In this document: positions 13,474-54,272 of the stretch, piece by piece | How positions within the stretch are numbered: the first letter of the stretch is position 1 | Layout: each line of letters opens with the position of its first letter | From: Pelagibacterium luteolum | GTDB lineage: Bacteria > Pseudomonadota > Alphaproteobacteria > Rhizobiales > Devosiaceae | Assembly: GCF_900100665.1 (NCBI RefSeq) | Contig: NZ_FNCS01000019.1 | Location: 1 to 55,292 of the forward strand | Direction of reading: 5' to 3' | Length of the DNA: 55,292 bases | Translations under genes and position numbers: made by a program | The notes under the pieces: generated by a model | Database searches by the model: none | Told to the model about the DNA's origin: nothing | What the model saw: only the letters and a program-made list of their open reading frames with translations

Positions 13474-13638
13474 CCGCTTAAGGGCTTTTCGCACGACCCT
13501 GTCGCCAACTGACGCATAGCCCTGTCGATCATGCGCACAATCGCCGATCTCGCGCCATATATGCGTGGTTGTGGGCGGGGTCTTCACAAAAGCGCAAGCA
13601 CCCTCTTTGCCGATGCAGCAATAGAGCCTATATCAATC

Positions 13639-13795
13639 GGGCTGCCCGGTTCGTGTAGGACTCTGCATCCCCGGGGCCTTATCGATCCTTAAGGGAGCTA
13701 TCCCTGTCCAGGCCCGTGGGCTTGGGTATATGGCGCCCACCTACATGAGTAGGTTTCCCGGGATCGACACGTCCCACGGCCAGGGCGGCACTTTA
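13639..13795 (+). ncRNA. ssrS: 6S RNA (RNA polymerase-binding regulatory RNA)
   Basis: Position is the main evidence: the conserved alphaproteobacterial slot directly upstream of the 5-formyltetrahydrofolate cyclo-ligase gene and downstream of zapA. The sequence folds as expected. GCTGCCC (13641-13647) pairs with GGGCGGC (13783-13789), TCGATCC pairs with GGATCGA further in, and an open central region and an apical GC arm lie between. TATATC at 13629-13634 fits a -10 box with TTGCCG 16 bp upstream, and a T-rich stretch (TTTATTTGTT) follows. 6S RNA mimics an open promoter and sequesters housekeeping RNA polymerase in stationary phase. The ends are approximate. The 165 nt between the MOSC stop and this RNA shows nothing else. 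Confidence 0.75.
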
Positions 13796-28940: not shown

Positions 28941-29354
28941 CTCGACCACCCTCGCTCACGAAATAACTTATCCCCGCCCTCTCAACCGCCCCCATACTCC
29001 CCGAACGAACCCGCGCATATGGACGCAAGCGCAACGAACGTTTGGGCGGGTTTGGTTCGGGTTCCTTGTGGGTCGCTGCAGGGAAGGCCTAAACGTCACA
29101 AGTGCCGGTCGTCGGTACCCATACGACGGCTTACCGGGGAAACCCGGCGGCGAGTTTGAAGCGGTTTGGCCGTGGCCAAAGCCGAAGGTCCGGTGGACCT
29201 TTGGCAGCGCCCAAACGCCCGGAGACCTATGGTCGGAGGGCCAAACCCCAGCCTTCTGAAGGGCGAGTAAGCCAAAAATCCCGAGCGCCTGGGGCGATGA
29301 TCGCTTCATACTACTAAATAAACCGCGGAGCGCTCATCGCCCCATGCCGTCTTC
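28941..29354 (+). repeat. large structured non-coding repeat, copy A (long form)
   Basis: This 414-bp segment recurs in inverted orientation at 42617-42941. Shared blocks are almost identical: GGACGCAAGCGCAACGAACG, GGGCGGGTTTGGTTCGGG, GGGAAGGCCTAAACGTCAC, a hairpin with GTCGT/ACGAC arms, CCGGG-GAAA-CCCGG, CCTTCTGAAGGGCGAGTAAG, and a terminal stem GGGGCGATGATCGCT / AGCGCTCATCGCCCC. The hairpin loops differ between copies while the stems are kept. Short open frames exist, but a 1-nt length difference between copies breaks them, so it is not coding. Copy A has about 90 extra nt (29155-29245) made of three small hairpins. It may be a RIME-like repeat or a multi-copy structured RNA, and the direction is arbitrary. 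The rest of the 651-bp ftsH-chemoreceptor gap shows only the hairpin at 29454-29497. Confidence 0.8.
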
Positions 29355-29453
29355 GACTACCGCTTAATCCGAGGCGATATCGCCGTCGGCAGTACAAGCG
29401 CGTCTGGGCTAGGGGAATAAACCTACTGGATTCCTAAACCGCCATTTAACCGA

Positions 29454-42534: not shown

Positions 42535-42616
42535 TCGCCCGGTTCGCTCCTTGGGTTCATTCCCATAGGCATGCGGATGTGCCCGCTGGCGCTACCATCG
42601 GGTCGCTGCAATTTCA

Positions 42617-42941
42617 AAGACGGCATGGGGCGATGAGCGCTCCGCACTGTATTTGTTTTATATGAAGCGATCATCGCCCCAGGCGCTCGGGATTTTTGGC
42701 TTACTCGCCCTTCAGAAGGCTGGGGTCAATCCCCGCCGGGTTTCCCCGGTAAGCCGTCGTATGGGGGCGACGACCGGCACTTGTGACGTTTAGGCCTTCC
42801 CTGCGGCGACCCGCAAGGAACCCGAACCAAACCCGCCCAAACGTTCGTTGCGCTTGCGTCCATCAACGCGGGTTCGTGAGAGCAGTATGGATGCGGTTTG
42901 GCGCGCGGGGATAAGTTTTTCGCTGGCGAGGGTGGTCGGGG
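42617..42941 (-). repeat. large structured non-coding repeat, copy B (short form)
   Basis: This is the inverted copy of 28941-29354. On the minus strand it has the same blocks in the same order and the same 15-position terminal stem (GGGGCGATGAGCGCT / AGCGATCATCGCCCC on plus), with a different loop. It lacks the module of about 90 nt present in copy A and joins directly from CCCGGCGGGG to CCCCAGCCTTC. It occupies most of the 604-bp gap between the kinase gene and serC. The remainder of that gap shows only the serC leader structure. Confidence 0.8.
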
Positions 42942-43036: not shown

Positions 43037-43138
43037 TCCCTAAAACTCACCCTTGCCAACTGCCCCCATCCTCCCCTATACGGGCTGCGGGCCATCCCTC
43101 CCCAACGAGGGACGACCCATCTGTAAGGATGGAGCAAC
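43037..43138 (+). promoter_or_regulatory. candidate serC leader with competing hairpins over the ribosome site
   Basis: TCCCTC (43095-43100) can pair with GAGGGA (43107-43112). CCATCC (43092-43097) can pair with GGATGG (43127-43132), which covers the ribosome site of serC. The two helices share 43095-43097 and exclude each other, as in a switch. A 'serC RNA motif' is known upstream of serC in alphaproteobacteria. I cannot confirm that this matches its consensus. Confidence 0.4.
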
Positions 43139-54068: not shown

Positions 54069-54183
54069 GGTTCGTCCTTTTGAAGCGCGTGAGTACAATC
54101 ACGCGACAAGCCAAGCGTTGCGGTCAGTGATGGACGAGGGGAAAGTTGGCATGGCACAAGGCACGCGAAGCGGCCCTTGCCAT

Positions 54184-54272
54184 CTCGTGCTTCCTCCGCC
54201 AGCATGACCTGGTTCAGGTTCTATGGGTGTTTCTCAGCCCATCCTTGCGGATGGGCACCCCAGCGAGACGAG
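54184..54272 (-). promoter_or_regulatory. TPP riboswitch (THI element) controlling thiBPQ
   Basis: On the minus strand the order is diagnostic: CTCGT P1 arm, GCTGGGGTGCCC, a P3-type hairpin (CCCATCC-GCAA-GGATGGG), CTGAGAAACACCC, GAACCTGAACCAGGTCATGC, GGCGGAGGAAGC, ACGAG P1 arm. The two invariant cores (CTGAGA and the ACCTGA/GG[AC]GGA region) are both present. Binding of thiamine diphosphate should shut down expression of the uptake operon when the cofactor is plentiful. Confidence 0.95.

Follow-up and report, generated by a model that had tools for sequence, protein, structure and literature searches.

The window analysed here, a stretch of 55,292 nucleotides of Pelagibacterium luteolum (contig NZ_FNCS01000019.1), contains two long, hairpin-rich segments that resemble each other and run in opposite directions. 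The question they raise is what kind of element this is: a gene for a structured RNA, a mobile sequence, or a site on the DNA itself. An earlier note had described shared blocks, in the same order and opposite orientation, at 28941-29354 and 42617-42941. This arrangement is confirmed at those positions, with BLAST aligning the two copies in pieces of 89% identity over 214 nt and 92% over 113 nt. The element is indeed present in both intervals, but the boundaries of the unit are somewhat shifted. It starts with a CTTATCCCCG motif, at 28967 on the forward strand in copy 1 and at 42915 on the reverse strand in copy 2, and it ends after an extra 3′ hairpin, H9, which the first interval lacked, at about 29389 in copy 1 and about 42582 in copy 2.

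Copy 1 (28967..29389, +) lies between ftsH and a PAS/MCP chemoreceptor gene. Its promoter-like block, CTTATCCCCG-N16-CATACT, is predicted at 28967..28998 by motif search. The structured core, corresponding to positions 1-161 of model R1, spans 29034..29283 (151.7 bits), and within it the near-invariant closing helix has its 5′ arm, CGGG, at 29058..29061, pairing with CCCG at 29280-29283 (positions read from the sequence). The long terminal hairpin H8, with an A/T-rich loop, occupies 29287..29347, and a terminator-like H9 (CCGAGGCGATATCGCCGTCGG, with a bulged G) is recognised by pattern search at 29369..29389. Copy 2 (42582..42915, −) is flanked by a divergent serC and a convergent histidine kinase gene. 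Its candidate promoter-like block, also CTTATCCCCG-N16-CATACT by motif search, is at 42884..42915, its core (R1 1-161; 184.3 bits) at 42688..42848, its H8 at 42623..42684, and a variant H9 (CCCGATGGTAGCGCCAGCGGG, from sequence and pattern search) at 42582..42602. The core measures 250 nt in copy 1 and 161 nt in copy 2, a surplus of 89 nt for copy 1. The 1-nt difference in loop length and the CCGGG-GAAA-CCCGG hairpin reported for the two copies are both as claimed. The minimum free energy z-scores of the window copies are −3.5 and −5.0.

Of the neighbours of copy 2, the kinase was named by Pfam and serC through the Rfam serC leader at 43085-43137 (+), the serC protein itself having no Pfam match at 1e-5. 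Rfam also matches 6S RNA (RF00013) at 13636-13795 (+) and a TPP riboswitch at 54174-54272 (−) in the window. A palindrome-rich extra insert is seen in copy 1 at about 29151-29245 (+), in its GGGG/CCCC hairpin, and a comparable one within H8 of a copy in genome G007 (L166). In lying within loops or stems of the element RNA, these palindrome-rich inserts are like rRNA intervening sequences.

The aligned copies have a common plan: the CTTATCCCCGC motif is followed by a TATnnT-like hexamer, a 5′ hairpin, the core, H8, a variable linker and H9. In the core, the CGGG/CCCG helix closes a multi-branched junction that holds a hairpin with a GTCG loop, a GGC/GCC helix, a strongly covarying four-pair helix and a variable hairpin with inserts. 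The junction further contains a GAAA-capped hairpin, whose stem is swapped among copies (CCGGG, CTCCC, CTGGC and others), and a GGGG/CCCC hairpin in which inserts are optional. Two further ideas, a GAAA receptor and pairing between ACGTTTGGGC and GCCTAAACGT, were dropped, since by eye the divergent copies retain neither.

Is this plan maintained by selection on pairing? The terminal stem had been offered as evidence of structure, and on this point the two window copies are uninformative about covariation because the stem is identical in both. Beyond them the argument holds, as different sequences, likewise able to pair, take the place of the stem in two copies of the same genome (L007, L021) and in many copies of other genomes. 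In an alignment of 27 copies (A1), in all rows of which the GTCG loop is invariant, RNAalifold gives 39 pairs, and 22 of these show compensated double changes; the uncompensated stem changes that would have argued against a conserved fold are thus not what is seen. Pairing is retained in 98.8% of 1046 cells, against 84.8% in shuffled alignments and 40-53% when the partners are slid. A larger alignment (A2; 101 distinct rows from 100 loci, 102 matches) has 98.1% paired against 79.7% shuffled, with rows that were fitted to the model and hence are biased towards it; in 14 of 500 shuffles, at least as many pairs had a change on both sides. For H8, aligned with MAFFT in 50 rows that take in 50 of the 100 distinct 3′ domains, the values are 96.7% and 80.2%; 14 of 20 pairs are changed on both sides, a number equalled in 2 of 500 shuffles, and the count of further pair types is unexceptional (74 of 500 shuffles equally high). 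The shuffles ignore relatedness among copies; the slid controls retain it and score far lower.

The non-Watson-Crick pairs tell on which strand the constraint acts. G-U pairs outnumber A-C pairs by 301 to 7 in A2 and by 93 to 1 in A1, and so the sense strand is constrained as RNA. Together with the covariation, this strand-specific pairing strongly supports one of the options named in the earlier note, a multi-copy structured RNA: the element has a conserved, covarying secondary structure on one strand and is strongly supported as a large structured noncoding RNA. A protein-coding repeat is made less likely by the compensated changes in stems and by length differences of a single base; open reading frames of 10-119 amino acids, with their frames uncompared, are present in the copies.

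The same bias bears on another of the options, a nucleoid or replication site. Here the copies would be DNA sites for chromosome organisation or replication, with TTATCCCC as a possible box for DnaA or another protein, and the sites are in fact dispersed and fixed, the motif is almost exclusive to the elements, and 10 of the 13 copies of genome G022 lie on one strand. The constraint, however, is one-stranded, and counts by strand, taken irrespective of the origin, are balanced in G008 (9 and 7) and G001 (8 and 11). The option finds no support in these data, and we regard a DNA site as very improbable.

Does the RNA belong to a known family? No Rfam 15 family reaches its gathering threshold over the element. 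A permissive Rfam scan over copy 1 gave just PreQ1-III (E 6.2) and, on the other strand, WLE3 (E 9.9), both at chance level, and the two matches of another permissive scan both lie outside the elements. A literature search of titles and the starts of abstracts found no description of the element among the matches listed. The element is a structured RNA family for which no known family was found, and it is apparently undescribed.

Several known systems resemble it in part. OLE, GOLLD and ROOL are elaborately folded noncoding RNAs that have a conserved core and are not known to have an assigned function. They belong to the large ornate bacterial RNAs (see PMC12286853). The element is like them in its elaborate fold and conserved core; it differs in being shorter (300-400 nt), in having many chromosomal copies at shared intergenic sites, and in reaching no Rfam family and having no phage match. 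Another stand-alone, multicopy structured RNA is the HEARO or omega RNA of IscB-type elements, which the element likewise resembles in being multicopy and structured. The HEARO model has no match to copy 1 at E up to 10, and no copy-specific guide was noticed by eye next to the element in the aligned copies. Dispersed loci undergoing concerted evolution are also known from rRNA and tRNA genes, to which the element is similar in its dispersed loci, conserved positions and concerted evolution; in contrast, its sequence is unrelated to theirs, and it is not universal and was not found in several relatives. REP, BIME and RIME are dispersed intergenic repeats (see also a Sinorhizobium meliloti survey, PMC2873474). 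The element is also dispersed and intergenic, but unlike these repeats it has a long covarying RNA core, its own 5′ motif and strand-specific G-U pairing. Membership among such short, strand-symmetric palindromes was rejected, given 311 columns filled in 70% of the rows and the 301:7 ratio of G-U to A-C.

The suggestion that there would be many copies per genome is borne out: copy 1 finds 28 matching pieces in its own genome, in which R1 has 15 matches. BLAST with copy 2 found the element in 14 of 41 genomes, the own one included. In the family Devosiaceae, R1 matches (E up to 0.001) occur in 20 of 136 genomes and 8 of 16 genera, the best 19 candidates per genome having been scored, so that a count of 19 means at least 19. 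Among 397 genomes of the order, 6 matched, all of the same family, and among 299 of the phylum one did, the own genome; the best 6 and the best 8 candidates per genome, respectively, were scored, and divergent members may escape. A pattern scan of genome_contigs (84,980 species) returned 36 stretches, from Pelagibacterium (P. limicola, P. xiamenense, P. lentulum and isolate SP179), Cucumibacter marinus and the MAG UBA3584.

In other genera, divergent members retain the core and, by eye, H8. The element is multicopy there as well, with 7 and 9 pattern matches in G122 and G139, where a reversed-pattern control had no match among the genomes listed, and 5 and 3 R1 matches in G136 and G140. Most divergent copies with upstream sequence retain the 5′ motif or a variant: it can be clearly recognised in L042, L055, L075, L158 and L159 (L055 being from G010, of the same genus), varied in L077 and indistinct in L076 and L078; for L072 and L074 the upstream region would lie past the contig end. 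In three genomes of the same genus (G002, G004 and G010) a more sensitive search gave no R1 match at E 0.01, and the RNA therefore seems dispensable in the genus; G010 has weak traces of the element.

The comparisons that follow use a set of 134 copies, left from 136 profile hits after an E-value limit removed the weakest two (L118 and the second hit in L198). These are 134 of the 151 R1 matches of 13 genomes, with 8 of 19 in G016, 3 of 6 in G011 and 2 of 4 in G012. Identities and the tree use 131 of them (L154, L155 and L157 are cut by contig ends), the motif search 130 and the H9 search 133.

If the element specifies an RNA, is it a gene of its own or part of a neighbouring transcript? The 5′ motif was found in 124 of 130 copies and in 3 of 130 downstream control windows, and H9 in 108 of 133 copies and 18 of 133 controls, both searches having been chosen after the copies were viewed and thus being descriptive; a few of the hairpins look like chance. 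A TATnnT-like hexamer begins 19-20 nt after TTATCC in 104 of the 124 motif-bearing copies; in 4 of the 19 copies without a hexamer the search mistook later sequence for the motif. The −35-like motif differs from the standard sigma-70 hexamer. In the own genome, 13 of 14 matches to the 5′ motif are located at elements; the only other one, at G000:C37:289967-289996 (−), has a 14-nt spacer. The bulged base of H9 is a G in 93 of 108 (counted manually), and TTT follows within 12 nt in 54 of 108, a frequency that is weak evidence for an intrinsic terminator.

Neighbouring genes have no fixed orientation. In the 121 copies with both neighbours called, 42 lie between convergent genes, 41 are (+,+), 23 (−,−) and 15 divergent, according to calls from a simple in-house finder, with neighbour strands scored and some neighbours named. 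It follows that the element is not a leader, and a riboswitch or other mRNA leader was rejected. Five of the 134 cores overlap a gene call by more than 30 nt. With its own promoter-like motif and 3′ hairpin, the element looks like a gene of its own.

A role in cis, as terminator or insulator between convergent genes or as leader of the next gene, would make sense of the 42 convergent copies, of the terminator-like look of the 3′ hairpin, and of the 33 copies, among 70 with an opposing downstream gene, that end no more than 20 nt from that gene. Such closeness may point to a local function for the 3′ end. Against such a role for the whole element, just a third of the copies are convergent and 15 of 121 are divergent, a covarying multibranch core far exceeds what a terminator needs, and the element has its own promoter-like motif. 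We consider a cis-acting element improbable.

How, then, did so many copies arise, and how are they kept alike? Comparison of flanks places 65 of the 134 copies in 22 same-site groups that span different genomes, a same-site call requiring at least 100 bits in tblastx for both flanks, with repeats in the upstream flank possibly aiding some pairs. All 16 copies of G008 have a same-site counterpart in G007, as do 16 of the 17 copies of G007 in G008, and copy 2, beside serC, has counterparts in five other genomes. The sequences do not follow the sites. In 141 of 146 directed comparisons, a copy is closer to the most similar copy of its own genome than to its same-site counterpart, and that counterpart is the top match in the other genome in just 17 of 146. 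The 75 same-site pairs have a mean identity of 70.7%. Some site signal is left in the closest pair of genomes, G007 and G008, where same-site copies average 78.6% identity and all pairs 72.4%; the best same-genome copy averages 93.3%. When 131 copies are placed on a tree, the genome label changes 22 times, against 89-99 in 100 shuffles (mean 93.9); the site label, on 65 rows, changes 51 times, near the lower end of the shuffles (50-57, mean 54.4), so the site signal is at most weak, though not zero. The copy tree thus follows genome and hardly site, which argues for concerted evolution: as with rRNA genes, copies resemble those in the same genome more than their counterparts in related species. 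In pairwise views, modules are swapped between otherwise near-identical blocks. Conversion between loci is the simplest reading of the homogenisation, and repeated re-insertion at identical sites is less likely.

The last point touches the main rival, the option of a non-autonomous mobile element, in which the RNA fold would serve the element's own spread, for example with a trans-encoded protein, and repeated re-spreading would give the homogeneity. The numerous similar copies per genome, the lineage-specific subfamilies, the modules exchanged between copies and the presence of the element in some species and its absence from others all suit it. At the ftsH-MCP site of copy 1, the element is present in G000, G007 and G008 and absent from G002 and G005, in which the gap is about 190 bp, compared with about 650 bp in the window. 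In G012 a copy precedes the same MCP gene at the end of a contig. In G006 a copy follows ftsH, the MCP gene being outside the stretch examined, and in G010 ftsH and the MCP gene are separated by a further gene, with no element found there. A site without the element exists, as a mobile element would predict, but one absence elsewhere has another cause. The site in G008 that corresponds to that of L167 in G007 retains the first bases of the element, TTTTATCCCC, fused to the last, CGGAGGTTTTGG, between 1173 and 1501 of L306; here the absence is an internal deletion, and the fused ends are its scar.

Other evidence also goes against mobility. Copies share sites and orientation across species. The flanks carry no signal of target duplication: the longest word shared by the two flanks averages 4.92, against 4.96 when flanks are re-paired, with 69 of 100 re-pairings as high, in 103 copies with both ends found; these ends are estimated, so an outlying duplication could escape. 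A blastn search with copy 2 matched none of 50,697 phage or 72,556 plasmid records, and an exact pattern had no match in viral_contigs. We therefore hold a mobile element to be unlikely, although module swaps and inserts in loops would also fit a mobile or mosaic repeat.

We think it probable that the element is instead a family of free-standing genes for a trans-acting structured RNA, homogenised by gene conversion and sometimes lost by deletion. Each copy would have its own promoter-like block, the CTTATCCCCGC motif with the TATnnT-like hexamer, and would specify an RNA of about 300-400 nt, longer where modules are inserted, composed of a 5′ hairpin, the multi-branched core, the long A/T-loop hairpin and a 3′ hairpin in which one base, mostly G, is bulged. 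From the sequences we infer that the copies are transcribed and their transcripts terminated, and that the most likely action of the RNA is in trans, with a structural or catalytic role or as a component of an RNP, its dosage being supplied by many loci. Inheritance of these loci would mostly be at fixed positions, and within a genome the copies may be kept alike by gene conversion that runs across conserved blocks. It is tempting, if tentative, to propose a new class of large trans-acting bacterial RNA in marine Devosiaceae: a dispersed, rDNA-like multigene family with fixed loci, its own type of promoter, interchangeable domains and genome-wide gene conversion, the RNA forming the core of an RNP or a ribozyme.

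To our knowledge, few orphan structured RNAs are this complex, and the known ones are mostly single-copy or phage-borne. In the present case an elaborate RNA is kept at 10 to 20 copies, in shared places and homogenised within each genome, which makes it a clear case in which to study how a dispersed noncoding gene evolves in concert in bacteria. The culturable marine strains make the element accessible to expression, pull-down and structure work.

Some copies have further repeats around them. In L030 (G009), a module of about 85 nt lies between H8 and H9, at about 1410-1510, and it reappears upstream of the Cucumibacter copy L039, at about 1350-1440, in opposite orientation and diverged (by eye); the module may move on its own. 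Upstream repeats are common to many copies of G001 and G007. Beside two G001 copies (L128 and L136), the intergenic region upstream is packed with about 1 kb of mixed hairpin repeats; part of the hairpin repeats next to these and several other copies we take to be RIME-like.
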